A stretch of 37,263 nt of DNA from Planctomycetaceae bacterium (GTDB lineage: Bacteria; Planctomycetota; Planctomycetia; Planctomycetales; Planctomycetaceae): assembly GCA_019636285.1 (NCBI GenBank), contig JAHBXV010000052.1, positions 1-37,263 on the forward strand, written 5' to 3'. Shown one piece after another: positions 5,120 through 16,890 of this stretch. Under the pieces are notes generated by a model, which searched no databases, was not told the DNA's origin, and saw only the letters and a program-made list of their open reading frames with translations. The position numbers and the translations under genes are program-made. Each line of letters starts with the position of its first letter. Positions within the stretch are counted from its first letter, which is position 1.

Positions 5120-6313
5120 ATGACAGATCGTGTTTCCGAATCATCGCCACCGGTCGGGTGTTCCCGTCGAGTGGCTCTCAAACAGTGTGCGGCGGGTTTG
5201 ATTGCCGCCGGGGGGCTGACTTCAGTGACCTCGCAGCCCGTGGCGGCGGCATCCGCTCCAGCGCCGAAGATCGAGTCCCGGCCGGGGGTGAAGACTCGCG
5301 GCATTTACGGCGGATTCCCGAACGCAATCTTCGACCGAGGCCGCACTCCGGCCGACTATGGAATCAACGCCATCTGGGTGGGATCGGGCGGACTCAAGCA
5401 GGACGAAATCGACCGCTGCCACACGCTGGGGTTGAAGGTCTTCGCCGAATTCAACTCGATGCACTTCGCGGGCTATCTGAAGGACCATCCAGACGCCGCC
5501 CCGATCGGCACCGATGGCCGGCCTTCTCCGCCACCGCACGACTGGCAGGGCGTGAGCCCGTTTCACGTTGGCTACCGCAAAAACCGGATGGATGAGTTTC
5601 GCCGAGTGCTGGAGACGTTCAACATCGACGGCATCTGGCTCGACTACCATCATGCCCACGCCAGTTGGGAGCGGGACGAACCGGCAATGCCCGACACCGA
5701 TTTTTCCCCGGTCGCATTAGAGCAATTCACCAAGCAAACGGGCATCAAGCTCCCTGCCGATGTTTCCGAAGCGGCGAAGCTGCTGCTCGGAACCCATCGC
5801 GACGCCTGGACCCAGTTCCGCTGCGATGTTTTCACGGACTGGGTCTGCGAGTACCGCGAGATTGTCGATGCCGTTCGCCCCAAGGCTCTCCTGGGGACGT
5901 TTCACTGCCCGTGGTCGTCCGACGACTTCGACGGAGCGATTCGTCACAAGCTGGCGATCGACCTGCCGGCCCAGGCAAAGTTCATCGACGTCTTCAGCAT
6001 CATGCCCTACCACGCACGGTTCGGGCACCAGCAGGATCCGGAGTGGATCGCTCGGCAGACGCAAAGCCTCGGCAGGCTGCTGAATCTCAAGGGGACGCCG
6101 GACGAGAAGCAGAAGATCTGGCCGATCGTGCAACTCGCGGATTGGGGGCCAACCGTCGACGCCGAGCAGGTTCCGCAGATCCTGGACTATGGTACGCGGC
6201 TCCCCGCGACGGGTGTGATGGTCTTCCACTGGAGCGGCATCTCGCAGCAGTGGGACAAGGTCGAGTCGCTGGGGAAGGTTTATCGAGCGATGCAACCGGG
6301 CGTGTCGTCATAG
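5120..6313 (+). CDS. Tat-exported glycosidase-like TIM-barrel protein
   Basis: 397 residues. The N-terminus has a twin-arginine motif (SRRVALK, residues 15-21), then a hydrophobic region and an AAASA site, so it should be exported folded by Tat. The mature protein resembles the putative glycoside hydrolase group related to GHL10/DUF4015 and alpha-fucosidase-like barrels: INAIWVGSGG, LGLKVFAEFNSMHF, then IDGIWLDYHHAHASWE, where an Asp after the IWL strand is typical of a catalytic or substrate residue, followed by FSPVALEQFTKQTGI and later VFSIMPYHARFG. No substrate can be named. A strong ribosome site (GAGGAGG) lies about 9 nt before the ATG. The gene stands alone on the plus strand and overlaps the end of arsA on the other strand by 6 bp, tail to tail. 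The 289 bp upstream hold no convincing gene. Confidence 0.65.
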   Translation: MTDRVSESSPPVGCSRRVALKQCAAGLIAAGGLTSVTSQPVAAASAPAPKIESRPGVKTRGIYGGFPNAIFDRGRTPADYGINAIWVGSGGLKQDEIDRCHTLGLKVFAEFNSMHFAGYLKDHPDAAPIGTDGRPSPPPHDWQGVSPFHVGYRKNRMDEFRRVLETFNIDGIWLDYHHAHASWERDEPAMPDTDFSPVALEQFTKQTGIKLPADVSEAAKLLLGTHRDAWTQFRCDVFTDWVCEYREIVDAVRPKALLGTFHCPWSSDDFDGAIRHKLAIDLPAQAKFIDVFSIMPYHARFGHQQDPEWIARQTQSLGRLLNLKGTPDEKQKIWPIVQLADWGPTVDAEQVPQILDYGTRLPATGVMVFHWSGISQQWDKVESLGKVYRAMQPGVSS

Positions 6314-8143
6314 CGGTGCGGATTCCTCCGCGACTTCATCGCCCGACAGTTGCCAATTGACATCCTGTCTCGCCGAGGCGTGTTCATACATCGCCAGCAG
6401 TCGGCGCAGCCCGGTACGTCCCACCGGCGGTTCCGGCTGCCACGGGATGAGGGCGACTCGGGCGGCGTGCTCACCGACGACTTCGCGAATGAAGGTCCGT
6501 TCGGCGACCTGCCGTGACTTCAGCACCGGGTCGATCACCGGCAGCGGTGCCAGACTCTGATTGATGATCCACGCATACGGCTCAATCTCGGCACGGCGCA
6601 AATCCCGCTGAAGCTGGGCGGCCTCATGGACTGGGGTGGCTTCCGGCAACGTCACGACCAGCACGCGGGTGAAGGCGGCATCGCGCAGCCGAGGCAACAG
6701 GCGTTCGACCGATTCCGGCATCTGTTGGGCTTGGCGCGTCACCTCGCGATGGTAAGCCAGCGCGGCGTCCAGCAGCAGGATCGTGTGGCCGGTCGGAGCG
6801 GTATCGAGGACGACAAACCGGTCGCTCCCCTCCGCCACCGCCTCGGCGAAGGCTCGGAAGACCGCGATTTCTTCTGTGCAGGGGGATCGCAAATCTTCGG
6901 CCAGGAGCGCTTTGCCGGACGCATCGAGGTTGCCCCCGGATTCCCGCATCACCTGCTCGGTATAGCGGGCGGTTTCTCCGGCGGGATCAATCCGACTCAC
7001 CGTCAAATTCGGCAGGACATCACGATCAATTGTTGCCGATACGTGTGCTGCCGGATCGGTCGTCGACAGATGGACCCGGAACCCCCGTTCCGCCAGGGCC
7101 ACCGCCACGGCGGCGGCGACCGTGGTCTTTCCGACGCCCCCTTTGCCCATCGCCAGAATGACTCCATGTCCGGGGGCGGCGAGTTCGTCGATCAAGTGTC
7201 CCAATGTCGGTGGCAGCACCAGGTCGTCCGAGCCCGTCAACACGGTCTCGCTCGCAATCGCCCGATCGGTGCCGAGCGCGCGCAGAGCCGGTAAGCCCAG
7301 AACTCCGGCGCGGGAGAGCGGGATCACGGTTCGCGGGAGATCAAGAACTGTCTCGGGGATGTCGTCCATCGCGAGTTCGCCGCGGCGCTGCAATGCGAGG
7401 GCGAACGGATCGTCGCCATTCGCCGCTCGAAAGACGCCGTTGATGACCAGATGCTGATTCTGGACACCCAACCCCGCGAGTTCGCCGCTGGTTCGCGCGG
7501 CTTCGCGAAACGCGGTGACTTCCGGACGGGTGACCAACACCAGCGTCGTGACCTGCGGGTCGCCGAGCGCCCGGACGGTCTCCTGATACAACGCCTGCTG
7601 CGCCTGGAGACCGGCGAGCGGCCCCAGACACGATGTCCCGGTCGTGTTCGTTTCCATGAACCCGGACCAGGCTGACGGCAGGGTCAGCAGTCGCAGGGTG
7701 TGTCCCGTAGGGGCCGTGTCAAAAATCACATGGTCATAGTCGCCCGTCGCGGCCGGGTCACTCAGCAGCTTGGAGAATTCGTCGAACGCGGCGATCTCCA
7801 GCGTACAGGAACCAGAAAACTGCTCTTCCATGCTGGCCACGGCCTCTTGAGGGAGCAGCCCGCGGTAGGGGCCCACCATCCGCTCGCGATACTCGGCCGC
7901 CACCTGCTCGGGATCGAGGTTCATGGCGGCCAAGCCAGGGACGGCGGGAATCGGCGTGGGGTGATGCCCAAGCGTCACGCCGAGCACCTCGTCCAGGTTC
8001 GAGGCCGGATCGGTCGAGACGAGCAAGACTCGCTGGCCCGCATCGGCCAATCGCACCGCTGTGGCGCAGGCCACGGACGTTTTGCCGACGCCCCCTTTCC
8101 CGGTGAAGAAGAGATTGCGCGTGGGGTGTTCCAGGAATCTCAT
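6308..8143 (-). CDS. arsA: arsenite-stimulated ATPase ArsA
   Basis: 611 residues, close to the classical two-domain ArsA (about 580). It hydrolyses ATP on the cytosolic side of an arsenite efflux permease and receives As(III) from ArsD. Two P-loop halves are visible: GKGGVGKTS at 15-23 and GKGGVGKTT at 333-341, each with its own DTAPTGHT signal (142-149 and in the second half). The As(III)/Sb(III) cysteines are all present, at the same numbers as in E. coli ArsA: C113 (SGSCTLEIAAFDEF), C172 (TSCLGPLAGL) and C422 (RSPCTEEIAVF). I chose the ATG at 8143 because GGAGGG lies about 8 nt upstream; the frame extends further but only into the preceding gene. It starts 14 bp after the ArsM-ArsD stop and is the last gene of the operon. 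No ArsB or Acr3 permease is in the window, so its partner must be elsewhere or absent. Confidence 0.95.
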   Translation of the reverse strand: MRFLEHPTRNLFFTGKGGVGKTSVACATAVRLADAGQRVLLVSTDPASNLDEVLGVTLGHHPTPIPAVPGLAAMNLDPEQVAAEYRERMVGPYRGLLPQEAVASMEEQFSGSCTLEIAAFDEFSKLLSDPAATGDYDHVIFDTAPTGHTLRLLTLPSAWSGFMETNTTGTSCLGPLAGLQAQQALYQETVRALGDPQVTTLVLVTRPEVTAFREAARTSGELAGLGVQNQHLVINGVFRAANGDDPFALALQRRGELAMDDIPETVLDLPRTVIPLSRAGVLGLPALRALGTDRAIASETVLTGSDDLVLPPTLGHLIDELAAPGHGVILAMGKGGVGKTTVAAAVAVALAERGFRVHLSTTDPAAHVSATIDRDVLPNLTVSRIDPAGETARYTEQVMRESGGNLDASGKALLAEDLRSPCTEEIAVFRAFAEAVAEGSDRFVVLDTAPTGHTILLLDAALAYHREVTRQAQQMPESVERLLPRLRDAAFTRVLVVTLPEATPVHEAAQLQRDLRRAEIEPYAWIINQSLAPLPVIDPVLKSRQVAERTFIREVVGEHAARVALIPWQPEPPVGRTGLRRLLAMYEHASARQDVNWQLSGDEVAEESAPL

Positions 8144-8157
8144 GATGACCCTCCATT

Positions 8158-9465
8158 TCAACAGCAGTCGGTTTCGGCGCAACCGCAACCAGTACCGGTG
8201 GTGACTTTCGCTTGCTCGTCCCTCGCGCAGCAGGCACCCTCTGTGGTTTGTGCCGGACCGCCGCAACAGTCAGCGGCCAATACGGACAACGCGGGACTGG
8301 CCAATTGCGACAGCATTTCCCGCGACGGATAGCCACTGCGGCTGACAACTCGACCATCCACCAGGATCAGCGGCAGGCAGTCGGTTCCCTCCGTTGAGAG
8401 CAGTTGATGCACGGTCGCGTTCTGAATGAACTCCTGCGGCTGCTGGGCCAGGTTGTACCGCTCCACGTGATGGCCCTGTTCCTTCAACCAGTCGAGATCT
8501 GCCGCGAACCGGGGCAGGACCGGATCGACCGACGGACCGCAGATGCCCGTCGAACAACACATCGGCTTGTCGTAGACTTGAATCGTTTTCATGGTGGGCT
8601 CCTGCATGAAGTGATCGCTGGGCTTCAGAGCATGCACGCGAACGCTCGCGGCATACTGGTTGGCATCGAATTGCCGGAGCACCTCCGCCAGGCCGTCATG
8701 AACGGGCGAAGACTCCGGCGCTGTGTTCTCCGGGGAACAACATGGCCCTGACGAACAGCAACCACTGGCTCCCGCCTGGGCATACGCATTCAGATTGGCT
8801 CCGGTATCCTGCACGACGACAGCCTCGAATCCCGCCTCGCGCAGCAGTCGTTCGTAGTCGCTGATCGGAATCGCTCCGGCAATGCAGCCCACGTAAGCCT
8901 GCACATCGTGGACGACTTCTTCCGGCAAGGGTTGCTTCAATGCGATGTCGCTGACGACTAGCCGTCCGCCCGGCTTGAGCACCCGCAGGATCTCGCGAAA
9001 GACCCGCGACTTATCGGGCACAAGATTAATCACGCAATTGCTGATGACACAGTCGACCGACGCATCGGGCAGGGGCAACTGGTCGATCTGGGCCAGATGA
9101 AACTCGACATGCGTGGCCCCCACCTGCGCGGCTCCGGCTTTAGCCCGCGCGATCATGTCGGGGGTCATGTCGATGCCGATGGCCTTGCCGGTGGGCCCGA
9201 CACGCTTCGCAGCCAGCAGGACATCCAGTCCGCCTCCACAGCCGAGGTCGACAACAACTTCTCCCTCTCGCAAACCGGCCAGCGCCACCGGATTGCCACA
9301 TGACAGGCCCATGTTGGCTTGCGGAGGTAACGATGCGAGATCTTCGGCCGAATAGCCGAAAGCCTGGGCGACTGACCGCACGGCGGCCGATTCATTCGAC
9401 AGGTGACTCCGAGCGACGGCCCCGTACTGGTTCTGGACGACGGACAAAAGAGATTCGTTTTTCAT
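8158..9465 (-). CDS. arsM-arsD: ArsM arsenite methyltransferase fused in frame to ArsD arsenic metallochaperone
   Basis: 435 residues without an internal stop. Residues 1 to about 285 are ArsM, which transfers methyl groups from S-adenosylmethionine to As(III). They show the SAM motif [15 protein letters not shown] (71-85) and the three arsenic-binding cysteines at C56 (GLSCGNP), C144 ([10 protein letters not shown]) and C194 ([10 protein letters not shown]), followed by a Cys-rich tail (GCCSSGPCC). Residues 292-435 are ArsD, which hands As(III) to ArsA. Counted from M292, its cysteines fall at 12, 13 and 18 (MCCSTGICG), as in E. coli ArsD, and the tail carries vicinal pairs (DCCGG, ACCAR, DCC). 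I chose the ATG at 9465 because ArsM homology starts there; a GTG at 9531 overlaps the arsR stop and is an alternative. An internal ribosome site and ATG at 8592 could also yield free ArsD. The position between arsR and arsA supports both roles. Confidence 0.9.
8590..8603 (-). promoter_or_regulatory. internal ribosome site and ATG for free ArsD
   Basis: On the minus strand AGGAG (8603-8599) lies 6 nt before an in-frame ATG (8592-8590). That ATG is exactly where ArsD homology begins ([10 protein letters not shown]). This is a textbook translation start inside an uninterrupted frame, so separate ArsD could be made as well as the fusion. Actual use is inferred. Confidence 0.55.
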
Positions 9466-9527: not shown

Positions 9528-9857
9528 TCACAGACTGGCGATCAGTGTTTTGAGTTCCTCGAGTTTCCCAGGGTTAATGCAGTAACAGACCTTGGGGCCG
9601 TCGACTTCTCCCTGAATCAAACCCGACTCCTTCAGAATCTTGAGGTGCTGCGAAACGGTCGACTGTGCCAACGGCAACTCGTCGACGATTTCCCCGCACA
9701 CGCACGCCGTTCTGCTAATCAACAGTCGCACGATTCGCACGCGGGCGGGATGGGCCACCGCCCAGGCCAACTGCGCCAACTGCTCGGCCGACGCATCGTC
9801 CGGAAGCATGACGCTTGACTCATCGCAGCACGGTAGTTGGGGCTTTCGCTTCGCCAT
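9528..9857 (-). CDS. arsR: ArsR-family arsenic-responsive repressor
   Basis: 109 residues, the usual size for a winged-helix ArsR/SmtB repressor. It represses the operon until As(III) binds. The helix-turn-helix is at about 55-80 ([27 protein letters not shown]), preceded by the metal-site motif CVCGE with C52 and C54, equivalent to the ELCVC site of classical ArsR. Extra cysteines sit near the N-terminus (C10, C11) and after the wing (C91, C93) and may add ligands. The ATG at 9857 has GAGGCGAGG just upstream. Palindromic sequence at 9871-9898, 14 bp before the start, is the likely operator. The gene ends 63 bp before the chosen arsM start, or overlaps it if the GTG at 9531 is used, and heads the arsR, arsM-arsD, arsA operon. 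Confidence 0.95.
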
Positions 9858-10560: not shown

Positions 10561-13500
10561 ATGCAAGCCATCGAAGCAGCAGAAACCTATCAGACTGAAA
10601 TGACCGACCTGCTGTTGGCTCTCGTGGCCCTGAAGAAGGGAAAGCGAGAGATTCGTTTGCCGATTGCCTGGTCCGGTTTAGCCGGGAGAGTGGCTGACGC
10701 GTTCAATGAGGTTGTCGAACAGAACGAACGGATGGCGGATGAGCTCTCGCGATTGCGGCGTAGCGTCGGCAAAGAGGGAAAGCTCGGACAGCGGATGACA
10801 GTGGGGGATGTGAGGGGCTTCTGGGCGGAGTCGGTCGACTCGGTCAATGAGCTCATCAACGACCTCGTGCATCCTACGACGGAAACTGCCCGCGTAATCG
10901 GTGCCGTGGCACAGGGCGACCTCTCGCACACGATGGCTTTGGAGGTCGATGGAAGTCCGCTCCAAGGGGAATTCCTCCGCACCGCGGAAACCATCAACAA
11001 GATGGTCAATCAGCTCGGAGCGTTCGCGGCCCAGGTCACCCGCGTGGCCCGTGAAGTAGGGACGGAAGGCAAACTTGGCGGGCAAGCCGCGGTAAAAGGC
11101 GTTGACGGGATCTGGCGCGAACTCACCGACTCGGTGAACTCAATGGCCGGGAATCTCACCGGCCAGGTGCGCAACATCGCCGAAGTGACGACAGCCGTCG
11201 CGAATGGCGACCTCTCTAAAAAGATCACCGTCGACGTCAAAGGTGAGTTCCTGGAACTGAAGGACACCATCAACACGATGGTCGATCAGCTCCGCTCGTT
11301 TGCGTCGGAAGTCACCCGCGTGGCTCGCGAAGTCGGTTCGGAAGGGAAGCTCGGCGGCCAGGCCCAGGTGGAAGGTGTTTCTGGCACGTGGAAGGATCTC
11401 ACCGACTCGGTGAACTCGATGGCCGGTAACCTCACGGCTCAGGTGCGCAATATTGCCGCCGTGACGACCGCCGTCGCCAACGGCGATCTGTCGCGGAAGA
11501 TTACTGTCGACGTGAAAGGCGAAATTCTCGAGCTGAAGAACACGATCAATACGATGGTCGATCAGTTGTCGTCTTTCGCGGCCGAAGTGACTCGCGTCGC
11601 TCGTGAAGTGGGAACCGAGGGGAAACTGGGTGGACAGGCCGAAGTGAAAGGGGTCGCCGGAACGTGGAAGGATCTCACGGATTCGGTGAACTTCATGGCG
11701 TCGAACCTCACCAGTCAGGTGCGCAACATCGCGGACGTCACGACGGCCGTGGCGAATGGCGACTTGTCGAAAAAGATCACCGTCGACGTGAAGGGAGAAA
11801 TCCTCGAACTGAAGGACACCATTAATACGATGGTGGATCAGCTTCGTTCATTTGCCGCGGAAGTGACCCGCGTGGCCCGTGAAGTCGGTTCGGAAGGCAA
11901 GCTTGGCGGGCAGGCCGACGTGAAGGGTGTTGGCGGTACCTGGAAGGATCTGACCGACTCGGTGAACTTCATGGCCTCGAACCTCACGAGTCAGGTCCGC
12001 AACATTGCCGACGTGACAACAGCCGTGGCGAATGGCGACCTCTCGAAAAAGATTACCGTCGACGTCCGCGGCGAAATTCTAGAGCTGAAGAACACCATCA
12101 ATACGATGGTCGATCAGTTGTCGTCGTTTGCTTCCGAAGTGACGCGCGTCGCGCGAGAAGTCGGCTCCGAAGGGAAACTCGGGGGACAGGCCGACGTACG
12201 CGATGTCGCGGGGACTTGGAAGGATTTGACCGACAGCGTGAACATGATGGCCGGCAACTTGACCGGTCAGGTGCGAAACATCGCTGACGTGACAAAAGCC
12301 GTGGCGGCCGGCGACCTCTCCAAGAAGATCACGGTCGACGTGCGCGGCGAAATTCTGGAACTGAAAAACACCATCAATACGATGGTCGACCAGTTGCGTT
12401 CGTTTGGGGCTGAAGTGACGCGCGTGGCCCGCGAAGTGGGGACGGAAGGCAAGCTGGGTGGACAAGCCGACGTTCCCGGGGTTGCCGGAACCTGGAAAGA
12501 CCTGACGGACAACGTCAACTCGATGGCATCGAATCTCACCAGCCAGGTGCGGAATATCGCCGAAGTGACGACCGCCGTCGCGAACGGCGACCTGTCGAAG
12601 AAGATTACCGTCGACGTGCGCGGCGAAATTCTGGAGTTGAAAGACACCATCAACACGATGGTGGACCAACTCGGCTCGTTTGCATCGGAAGTGACGCGCG
12701 TGGCCCGCGAAGTGGGAACCGACGGCAAACTCGGCGGTCAAGCCAACGTGAAAGGAGTCGCCGGGACTTGGAAGGATCTCACCGACTCCGTGAACTTCAT
12801 GGCGTCGAACCTGACCAGCCAGGTGCGGAACATCGCCGACGTGACCAAAGCGGTGGCGACGGGGGACTTGTCCAAGAAGATCACCGTCGACGTGAAGGGC
12901 GAAATTCTCGAACTCAAAAACACCATCAATACCATGGTGGACCAGCTTCGCTCGTTCGCCGCCGAAGTGACGCGCGTGGCCCGTGAAGTGGGATCGGAAG
13001 GTAAGCTCGGCGGCCAGGCCGACGTTCGCGACGTCGCGGGCACGTGGAAAGACCTGACCGACTCCGTGAATACGATGGCGGGTAACTTGACGGGTCAGGT
13101 TCGCAATATTGCCGACGTGACGAAGGCCGTCGCGGCCGGCGACTTGTCGCGCAAAATCACCGTCGATGTGAAAGGCGAAATTCTCGAACTGAAGAACACG
13201 ATCAACGTGATGGTGGACCAGTTGGGTTCATTCGCGGCGGAAGTGACCCGAGTGGCGCGCGAGGTGGGGACGGAAGGCAAGCTCGGTGGACAGGCCGACG
13301 TGCAAGGAGTCGCCGGGACGTGGAAAGACCTCACCGATTCGGTGAACTCGATGGCGTCGAACCTGACCAGCCAGGTGCGCAACATCGCGGACGTGACGAC
13401 CGCTGTCGCGAATGGTGACCTCTCGAAGAAGATCACCGTCGACGTGAAGGGGGAAATTCTGGAATTGAAGGACACCATTAATACGATGGTGGATCAATTG

Positions 13501-16500
13501 CGCTCGTTCGCGGCGGAAGTGACGCGCGTGGCCCGCGAGGTGGGGACGGAAGGGAAACTCGGCGGGCAAGCTCAGGTCGAAGGGGTGTCGGGGACGTGGA
13601 AAGACCTCACGGACAGCGTGAACATGATGGCGGCCAACCTCACCGACCAGGTGCGCGGCATTGCCAAAGTGGTGACGTCCGTGGCGAACGGGGAATTGAA
13701 ACGCAAGCTGACCCTGGAAGCCAAAGGTGAAATCGCCGAGTTGGCCGACACGATCAACAGCATGATCGACACGCTCGCCACGTTCGCCGATCAAGTGACG
13801 ACAGTGGCGCGCGAGGTGGGTGTCGAAGGACAATTGGGCGGTCAAGCCAAGGTGCCCGGGGCTGCCGGGACGTGGAAAGCACTGACGGAGAATGTGAACC
13901 AGTTGGCCGACAATCTGACCCGTCAGGTGCGCGCGATCGCCGAAGTGGCGACGGCCGTGACGAAAGGCGATCTCACGCGATCGATCGCGCTCGATGCTCA
14001 GGGGGAAATGGCGGCCCTGAAAGACACGATCAACGAAATGATCCGCAATTTGAAGGACACGACGCTGAAGAATAACGAACAGGACTGGTTGAAGACCAAC
14101 CTGGCGAAGTTCAGCCGCATGTTGCAGGGTCAGCGCGACCTGGCCAACGTCGGCCGCATGGTGCTGTCCGAACTGTGTCCGGTCGTGTCCGCGCTGCAGG
14201 CGGAGTTCTATGTGCTCGACCAGGTGGAAGATGGAGGCCCCTGCCTGACGCTGCTGGGAAGTTATGCCTCGGAGGGACAACAAACGCTTGGCCAGCGCGT
14301 GGCGCTGGGGCAGGGGATTTTGGGCCAATGCGCGCTGGAACGTCGCAAAATCATTCTGGATAATCCGCCCGACACCTATCTACGCGTGTCGTCGGGACTC
14401 GGGGCCGCGCCGCCCCGCAGCGTGATGGTGTTGCCCTTGATCTTCGAAGGTCAGGTGAAGGGGGTGCTGGAGCTCGCATCCTTCGAGGGGTTCAATCCCA
14501 CGCACCATGCCCTGCTGGAGCAGTTAACCGAATCGATCGGCATCGTGCTGAACACAATCGAAGCGAACATGCGGACGGAAGGCTTGCTGCAGCAGTCGCA
14601 ATCGCTGGCTCAACAACTTCAATCGCGACAAGAGCAATTGCAGCAGACTAACCAGGAACTGCAAGAAAAGGCGCAATTGCTTGCCCAGCAGAACGAGGAG
14701 GTCGAACGCAAGAACAGCGAAGTCGAACAGGCCCGTCAGGAGCTCGAGGATAAAGCCAAGCAACTGGCGCTCACGTCGAAGTACAAATCCGAATTCCTCG
14801 CGAACATGTCGCACGAACTGCGGACGCCGCTCAACAGTTTGTTGATCTTGTCCGATCAGCTCAGTAACAATTCCGAAGGCAACCTGTCGCCGCGGCAAAT
14901 GGAGTTCGCCAAGACGATCCATTCATCCGGCAACGAATTGTTGATGCTGATCAACGACATTCTCGATCTCTCCAAAATTGAATCGGGAACGGTGGTCGTC
15001 GATGCCAGCGAGCTCAGAATCGATGACTTGCAGGCTTATGTCGAACGGACGTTCCGACACATCGCCGAAAATAAGAATGTCAGCTTCCACGTGCGCTTTG
15101 CCGAGACCCTGCCGCAAACGCTGTATACCGATGCCAAGCGACTGCAGCAGATCATCAAGAATTTGCTGTCGAACGCGTTCAAGTTCACGCAGCAGGGCCA
15201 CGTGACGCTGGCGGGGGAAACCGTCTCGTTCGGGTGGAGTGACGATAACGACAGCCTCAACCGCGCGGCCGAGGTCATCGCCTTCTCGGTGACCGATTCT
15301 GGAATCGGAATTCCAATCGATAAGCAACAGATCATCTTCGAAGCGTTCCAGCAGGCAGACGGCTCGACCAGTCGCAGATTTGGCGGCACCGGTCTGGGGC
15401 TGGCGATCAGCCGCGAGCTGTCTCGTCTTCTCGGCGGGGAAATCCGTCTCGCATCTATTCCCGGCCAGGGCAGCACGTTTACTCTGTACCTGCCCGCTGC
15501 CTTTTCCTCGGTCAAAACGCAGCGGCGGCAAGGAACTCCGGATTCCGGGATCGACCCGCGCTCCCACTCCCTCGGCGAATTCACTTTTGTGCCGGCAGTT
15601 GACAAGACGTCAGGCAACGACGGGGCCACCGCGGGTGACCGTCCTGCCGGTTGGCCGCCCGAGCAGTCACTTAATGAAGTCCCCAACGAAGTCGGAGATG
15701 ACCGTAACGACATCCTTCCCAACGATCGCGTGCTGCTGATCGTCGAAAACGATCAAGCCTTCTCGCGAATCCTTCTGGAAACGGCCCGCGAAATGGGATT
15801 CAAGGGGCTCGTGACGTCGATGGGGGCGACTGCGTTGACCATGGTTCGCGAATTTAAACCGCACGCCATCAGTCTCGACATCAACCTGCCGGATATCGAC
15901 GGCTGGCGAATTCTGGACCGTCTGAAGAACGATCTCTCGACGCGTCATATTCCCGTCTGCGTCGTGTCTACCGATGAGTCTCGCGGCTGGGCGTTTGCCG
16001 CGGGGGCCTATCTCTTCCTGGCGAAGCCGCTGCAGAATCGGCACGCTCTCGAGCGGATGCTGGAGCGAGTCAATGACTTTCTCGTTCGAAAAACGCATAC
16101 GGTTGTTGTTCACGAGCCGGACGTCGCGCAACATGATGCCTGGAAGGAGACGCTTTCTGGCGACAATGTGAACCTCAGCGTTTCCGCGGAGACGGAATCG
16201 ATTGCCAGTTTGCTGGGAGGGCGGAAAGTCGACTGTCTGATTACCACGGCGCCAACACCCGACCTCTGGAAGGAACTTCAGAAGGACGATGATGAAGTCG
16301 AGGGGTTAAGCCAGCGCATCCCCGTGATTGTGTACTCTCAACAGCACGAGGAGAATCATCAATTCAGTGCCGGACCGTTGCAGGGTGTCGTGCGTCAGGC
16401 GCGGAGCCTGGACCGGCTGCACGATCTCGCCGCGCTTCTTCTGCACGATAACGTCTCGCGACTGCCGCGCGAGCGGCAGAAGCTGGTGCGCGACCTGCAT

Positions 16501-16890
16501 GCCTCCAATCAGAATCTTCAAGGCAAGAAGGTTCTGATCGTCGACGACGACATGCGCAACATCTTCGCCCTGTCGACGGTCCTCGAAGAACACGCCATGA
16601 CGGTCGTGTCGGCCGACAACGGACGGGATGCCATTGCCTTGCTGCAGGATCAGGATGATGTCGACATCGTGCTGATGGATATCATGATGCCGGAAATGGA
16701 CGGGATGGAAACCATGCGCGAAATCCGAAAAATCGGCCGGCATAAGAATCTGCCGATCATTGCCGTGACTGCCAAGGCGATGAAAGGCGATCGCGAAAAA
16801 TGCATCGAAGCCGGTGCGTGGGACTATCTGTCGAAGCCGGTCGATGTGACGCAAATGATGGCCGCCCTGCGTGCTTGGCTGCGTCGGTAG
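10561..16890 (+). CDS. giant soluble poly-HAMP hybrid histidine kinase (Nik1/group III-like)
   Basis: 2109 residues with no membrane segment, so cytosolic. The order is: a short N-terminal helical part; about eleven 92-residue HAMP-type repeats (residues about 161-1165); a GAF domain (about 1200-1335, ending in [21 protein letters not shown]); a Gln/Glu-rich coiled coil; HisKA with the phospho-acceptor H1418 in [13 protein letters not shown]; HATPase_c with [10 protein letters not shown] (about 1534), DSGIGI and [10 protein letters not shown] (about 1609); a receiver with D1773 ([11 protein letters not shown]); a degenerate receiver-like segment (about 1841-1985) without the acidic site; and a last receiver with D2040 ([11 protein letters not shown]) and a KPVD end. 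Tandem HAMP arrays of this kind sense osmotic or related stress in fungal Nik1 kinases; the bacterial signal is unknown. The array here has more units than the five or six usual in Nik1. The next gene is another hybrid kinase, probably co-transcribed. Confidence 0.93.
11041..14052 (+). repeat. eleven tandem 276-bp coding units (92-residue HAMP repeats)
   Basis: The codons for RVAREVG recur exactly every 276 bp, at 11041, 11317, 11593, 11869, 12145, 12421, 12697, 12973, 13249, 13525 and 13801. Each unit reads through [42 protein letters not shown] and TINTMVDQL. The proteins of units 1-10 are nearly identical, while third codon positions differ freely. The last unit and the second half of unit 10 are the most divergent. 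Each unit probably holds two HAMP modules. Confidence 0.95.

Follow-up and report, generated by a model that had tools for sequence, protein, structure and literature searches.

The joining of an arsenite methyltransferase (ArsM) to the arsenic chaperone ArsD in one open reading frame is confirmed by sequence comparison as real and conserved: after merging identical copies, a search for the same fusion in other genomes gave 24 distinct in-frame loci, including the one in the window (the whole stretch of 37,263 nucleotides analyzed here), a number that excludes a chance join. The original prediction had read both proteins from a single frame at 8158–9465, and these coordinates hold; the strand, which it had left unstated, is the minus strand. 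It had further proposed an internal start yielding free ArsD, and this start looks functional and under selection from its conservation among relatives, as detailed below.

Table 1. Coordinates of the arsenic gene cluster in the window and of the parts of its fused gene
Feature	Position	Strand	Details
arsM::arsD fused gene	8158..9465	-	435 codons + TGA
ArsM domain	8623..9465	-	residues 1–281: SAM methyltransferase + C-terminal helix/strand 254–281
Cys-rich ArsM loop CCSSGPCC	8737..8760	-	residues 236–243, partly low-confidence
Inter-domain linker	8593..8622	-	residues 282–291; low pLDDT, varies among relatives
Shine–Dalgarno-like internal AGGAG	8599..8603	-	6 nt (CCCACC) 5' of the ArsD ATG
Internal ArsD start ATG (Met292)	8590..8592	-	in frame
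ArsD domain	8158..8592	-	144 codons + stop; Cys12/13/18, Cys-rich tail
arsA, arsenical pump-driving ATPase	6308..8143	-	TIGR04291 784.6 bits, cut-off 650
arsR, ArsR/SmtB-family regulator	9528..9857	-	HTH_5 E 4.9e-14; NF033788 71.7 bits, cut-off 55

The fused gene and its genomic setting

The fused frame runs from ATG (9465..9463) to TGA (8160..8158) and encodes 435 residues, the minus strand being open over the whole span while the plus-strand frame holds several stops. Both halves scored above the curated NCBIfam cut-offs, with the arsenite methyltransferase model NF008823 matching residues 3–221 (282.6 bits, cut-off 263) and the ArsD model NF033727 residues 293–388 (127.5 bits, cut-off 90), and the Pfam ArsD model (PF06953) covered residues 292–405 (E 2.9e-41, 141 bits, cut-off 27). 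The arsenic-related cysteines are kept as had been predicted, namely Cys56, Cys144 and Cys194 in the ArsM part and Cys12, Cys13 and Cys18 of ArsD (numbered from Met292; residues 303, 304 and 309 of the fusion), and each of these positions is a Cys in 24/24 fused loci.

The AlphaFold model (56 sequences, mean pLDDT 85.5, pTM 0.67) predicted the two domains as separate confident folds connected by a low-confidence linker, their mutual orientation not being fixed by the model. Residues 254–281 were confidently folded after the methyltransferase (mean pLDDT 94 for 261–270 and 97 for 271–280), and alignments of unfused planctomycete ArsMs extend to about residue 284 of the fusion. Since residues 254–281 lie in the ArsM domain, the true linker comprises about ten residues, approximately 282–291; thus, within the boundary region originally placed at residues 245–292, the 282–291 portion stands as linker and the 254–281 portion does not. 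The pLDDT fell below 50 at 235–239, 286–288 and in the tail, 396–435. Among the best 50 matches listed in the structure search, all were to the methyltransferase part.

The gene order is arsR-arsMD-arsA, in which arsR is the first gene of the cluster and arsA, with GGAGG read upstream of its ATG, directly follows the fused gene. A scan for promoters and terminators found one promoter-like site (0.5 in shuffles) and one terminator-like site (3.4 in shuffles), which amounts to no signal. Adjoining the cluster, on the plus strand of the window (10561–16890), lies a gene for a 2109-residue hybrid histidine kinase exhibiting 11–12 HAMP repeats, GAF, HisKA, HATPase and two receiver stretches.

The window's genome harbors a single ArsM–ArsD; its next ArsM-like match reached 42.8 bits, and its one other ArsA_ATPase-family match was short (contig C56, 33.4 bits). 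The ArsD search of this genome found no second ArsD, and no ArsB was found in it. One Acr3 was detected on a different contig from the fused gene, near arsR-like and arsC-like frames (both labels read from translation). The genome's second arsenic cluster (L103, G000:C49) comprises an ArsR-like protein, an unnamed Cys-ended protein, an ArsC-like protein and the single Acr3.

Conservation of the fusion in Planctomycetota

The related-locus search with the window returned 75 loci. The ArsD searches spanned three overlapping sets of genomes. In the family, 53 of 170 genomes gave a match; in the class, 99 of 397 did, 98 of them over the cut-off; and in the phylum, 16 of 392, with 14 over the cut-off. 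Other phyla were covered by the close-relative scan only. Loci sharing an identical 100 nt of ArsD DNA were counted once, and the fused loci account for 24 of the 108 in the resulting ArsD catalogue; this is no random sample, many of its loci having been collected for their similarity to the window. Fusion candidates were chosen by frame length, a criterion that can miss split or short ones. The named fused loci all belong to Planctomycetota, and the fusion occurs in single-contig genomes (G001, G061 and G077) and in a named strain, Aporhodopirellula aestuarii ICT_H3.1 (L029); no further ArsM–ArsD was recognised outside the class among the 392 phylum genomes. Plasmid carriage was considered and rejected, as one place covering 80% of the query occurred in 0/2257 records with a match. 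The one new ArsD above the cut-off in a long frame (368 aa; L243, G596), from another family of the phylum, is followed by a domain resembling DUF2703 and a Cys-rich tail.

The linkers of the fused loci, taken as the stretch between the ArsM domain and the ArsD start, total 610 codons with 0 stops, and they range from 36 to 195 nt in nine length classes, each a multiple of three. Read in the +1 frame, these linkers contain stops in 20/24 loci. A stop or frameshift hidden between the domains, which had been named as a threat to the fusion, was found in none of the 24 loci. Nor did we find a relative with the same boundary followed by a stop, the one adjacent unfused pair (L041) having a different junction, out of frame. 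Near the C-terminus of L038, ArsD runs on in another frame, reflecting a frameshift or a sequencing error in this MAG.

An arsR lay upstream in 23/24 fused loci, not being seen in L038, and an ArsA match lay downstream in 23/24 (the L032 copy is cut by the contig end and that of L170 is in two pieces); in the remaining locus, L165, the contig leaves only 886 nt downstream. Acr3 was within the fetched stretch of 4/24 fused loci (L157, L166, L029 and L159).

The internal ArsD start

The AGGAG 6 nt before an in-frame ATG, from which a 144-residue ArsD would be read, is present in the window as originally described. An ATG at ArsD residue 1 was found in 22/24 fused loci; it is absent in L037 and L171, which also lack the Shine–Dalgarno (SD) sequence and carry TTG and GTG, respectively, as the third ArsD codon. 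We measured SD strength as the energy of the duplex with the anti-SD (kcal/mol), using the usual bacterial anti-SD, since no 16S, and hence no 16S tail of the host, was found in the window's assembly. The mean energy was −6.45 kcal/mol at the 22 internal ATGs versus −2.14 at 198 other in-frame ATGs (p 6e-9), next to −5.96 at 80 non-fused arsD ATG starts and −6.37 at 24 ArsM starts. An energy of −4 was reached by 18 of the 22 internal ATGs, 17% of the other in-frame ATGs and 81% of the non-fused arsD starts, while pairing was weak (−0.4 to −3.8) in a four-member group, L161–L164.

Resampling of synonymous codons reached the observed mean in 0/2000 draws, and in 5/5000 draws for a set of 17 genes filtered so that fourfold-site identity stayed below 0.5; with only the window gene the result was unremarkable, 22% of draws being as low. 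Likewise, KE, QE or EE residue pairs were encoded with AGGAG in 12/16 cases just before the start versus 5/41 elsewhere in the genes (Fisher p 1e-5). Pairwise agreement at fourfold sites had a median of 0.33 against 0.27 expected at random, which is near saturation, and therefore the AGGAG codon choices are close to independent; the loci share ancestry, and the near-saturation of synonymous sites removes that dependence only partly. The internal SD and start are thus conserved and stronger than background, with the exceptions of L037, L171 and the weakly pairing L161–L164. The predicted free ArsD gains from a start that looks selected and, because two fusions lack the ATG and the four-member group pairs weakly, loses its universality. 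In L037 and L171, devoid of both ATG and SD, ArsD therefore probably works within the fusion.

Origin of the fusion and decay of ArsM

The ArsM tree was built by a quick method from 72 rows, after removal of those that contained a stop or were too short or too weak. All 24 fused rows grouped in one clade (SH-aLRT 99) together with a single unfused row, G027, and two changes of the label "fused" suffice. The unfused ArsM of G027 (L176, 6027–6971) is nested within this clade; its tail, inspected by eye, ends in a CCGG..CC motif resembling the one that closes ArsD in fused relatives, such as an in-frame deletion of the ArsD core might leave. The same label required 14 changes on the ArsA tree (84 rows, with X placed where a row had a stop and seven loci flagged for one) and 14 on the poorly resolved ArsD tree (108 rows), as against 2 on the ArsM tree, with at least 6 and at least 3 of these, respectively, forced by the starred branches. 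The ArsD tree was dropped as a test of a single origin, having too few columns. Neighbors also differ by tree: the ArsA of the window pairs with L157, and its ArsM with L165 and L171. L037 and L171 have long ArsD and ArsA branches, and therefore an exchange of their ArsD–ArsA part, followed by in-frame rejoining, may have occurred.

Repeated loss of ArsM explains part of the 14 changes on the ArsD and ArsA trees, as the scars of such losses show, and exchange of the ArsD–ArsA part may explain some of the discord. Scanning up to 2000 nt upstream of ArsD (less on shorter contigs), we detected ArsM-like sequence at E<1e-5 in 9 of the 84 non-fused ArsDs, comprising the intact gene of L041 and eight scars; reversed sequence gave 0 matches at E<0.05, and the opposite strand gave 1 at E<0.05 and none at E<1e-3. 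Two further upstream matches, in L078 and L090, were weak (E 0.009). The methyltransferase core was wholly or partly deleted, with the ArsD behind it still open, in seven of the eight scars: L120 (= L172), L080, L224 (= L048), L174, L064, L194 and L095. In the eighth, L132, the upstream frame is broken and no more than 230 nt precede ArsD. Among the scar ArsDs listed (G029, G157, G160 and G064), the Pfam model was covered without a stop.

On the ArsA tree, several scars stand beside different fused lineages (L080 with L038, support 98; L064 with L030 and L031, 100; L174/L194/L235 with L161, 95), and L048/L056 form their own group (98) among plain operons. From these placements we read at least three putative separate losses of ArsM, with ArsD staying behind an existing start; wherever ArsM has decayed, the internal start must serve or be replaced. 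The scarred genome G029 holds two other near-complete ArsM matches, and the loss there was therefore bearable.

Relation to known arsenic systems

The window protein shares with ArsM/AS3MT (NF008823; solved structures 4fr0, 4fs8 and 5evj) the methyltransferase domain, with matches to ArsM entries in both sequence and structure, but it runs on into ArsD where known ArsM stops at about residue 284. ArsM is described in the passages cited as methylating As(III) (PMC5552862, PMC12607644), and Cys72, Cys174 and Cys224 of CmArsM are given as As(III)-binding (PMC5552862); the window's Cys56, Cys144 and Cys194, conserved in the fused loci, are putative counterparts of these. As in known ArsD (PF06953, NF033727; solved structures 3mwh and 3kgk), the window has the full domain, Cys12/13/18, a Cys-rich tail and arsA next to it; however, the known form is a separate protein, whereas here it follows ArsM at the C-terminal end of one chain and has a probable start of its own. 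ArsD is described in the cited passages as carrying As(III) to ArsA (PMC6205960, PMC2963123). The arsR-arsD-arsA clusters of related genomes keep the same order and near relatives of ArsA and ArsD, but have no ArsM before ArsD, some of them holding a decayed ArsM there.

Other arsenic proteins likewise carry a second domain in one chain: ArsR–ArsC, Acr3–ArsC, AqpS–ArsC and ArsN with ArsC or ArsD in the passages cited (PMC6205960, PMC6514093), ArsM–SelD in Naegleria (PMC5552862), and ArsM joined to another domain in the NCBIfam models for ArsM–AhpD and ArsM–DUF2284 selenoproteins, judged by model names only. None of these joins ArsM to ArsD, and the passages cited mention no internal start for them. 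We found no ArsM–ArsD fusion in the open-access literature searched, although it may be in print elsewhere, and such chains may already stand in protein databases with automatically assigned names. The parts are thus ordinary and the join unusual, the fusion being unremarked within the open-access literature searched.

Proposed function and alternative explanations

We consider it probable that the gene gives rise to a bifunctional ArsM–ArsD protein together with free ArsD (about 435 and 144 residues), coupling methylation to the handling of As(III) by ArsD and ArsA. The ArsM domain would methylate As(III) with SAM through Cys56/144/194, while the tethered ArsD would bind As(III) at Cys12/13/18 and deliver it to the ArsA encoded by the next gene. 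ArsA would presumably energize Acr3, because Acr3 occurs once in the genome and ArsB was not found there; this distant Acr3 fits the arsA operons with a transporter elsewhere in the genome that are described in a passage of PMC2963123. The fusion would put methylation and efflux loading at one site, As(III) on the tethered pair going either to methylation or to ArsA, and the internal start would supply extra, free chaperone. The sequences themselves show the fusion, its conservation, the gene order, the SD/ATG signal and the decay of ArsM with ArsD retained; we infer the occurrence of two products in the cell, the sharing of As(III) between the domains and the partnership with Acr3. More tentatively, and with somewhat less than even confidence, the gene may be a dual-output one in which As(III) is shared between methylation and efflux, the selected internal start sets the ratio of free to tethered ArsD, and this start lets ArsD persist where methylation is abandoned.

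If ArsD instead acted solely as a C-terminal domain, the internal SD and ATG would be left over from an unfused ancestor, which would suit the in-frame ArsD of L037 and L171, the weak pairing in L161–L164 and the fact that the genome of L171 (G421) shows no other ArsD. This we regard as unlikely, since the SD bases are retained more than codon choice would explain, although synonymous sites are near saturation, and ArsD outlives ArsM in several lineages; even in the two exceptions the GTG (L171) or TTG (L037) at the third ArsD codon may act as a weak start. The opposite proposal, a stop loss without consequence in which translation from its own start would supply ArsD and the long product would be minor or neutral, draws on the resemblance of the internal start to an ordinary arsD start and on the persistence of ArsD where ArsM decays; it seems more improbable still in view of the frame kept in 24/24 loci, the stop-free 610 linker codons set against the stops of the +1 frame, the nine lengths divisible by three, and the two loci that keep the fusion without an internal ATG. 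The window does come from a 113-contig assembly, but an assembly or sequencing artefact has a negligible probability and is effectively refuted for the group by the same frame in 24 distinct loci, the single-contig genomes and the strain of L029 included; a sequencing slip as the source of the fusion was ruled out on the same ground. Separate genes misread as one were also rejected, the only adjacent unfused pair, L041, having stops and an out-of-frame junction.

As(III) is usually portrayed as having two distinct fates, methylation and ArsD/ArsA efflux; that one conserved chain carries both suggests a coupling between them in these bacteria. With the fusion, it becomes possible to test whether the chaperone feeds ArsM or competes with it. 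The series of decaying ArsMs represents a natural deletion set for the way in which an internal start allows a bacterial fusion to be undone and, if the dual-output reading is true, the internal start would let ArsD survive the decay of ArsM in lineages abandoning methylation.
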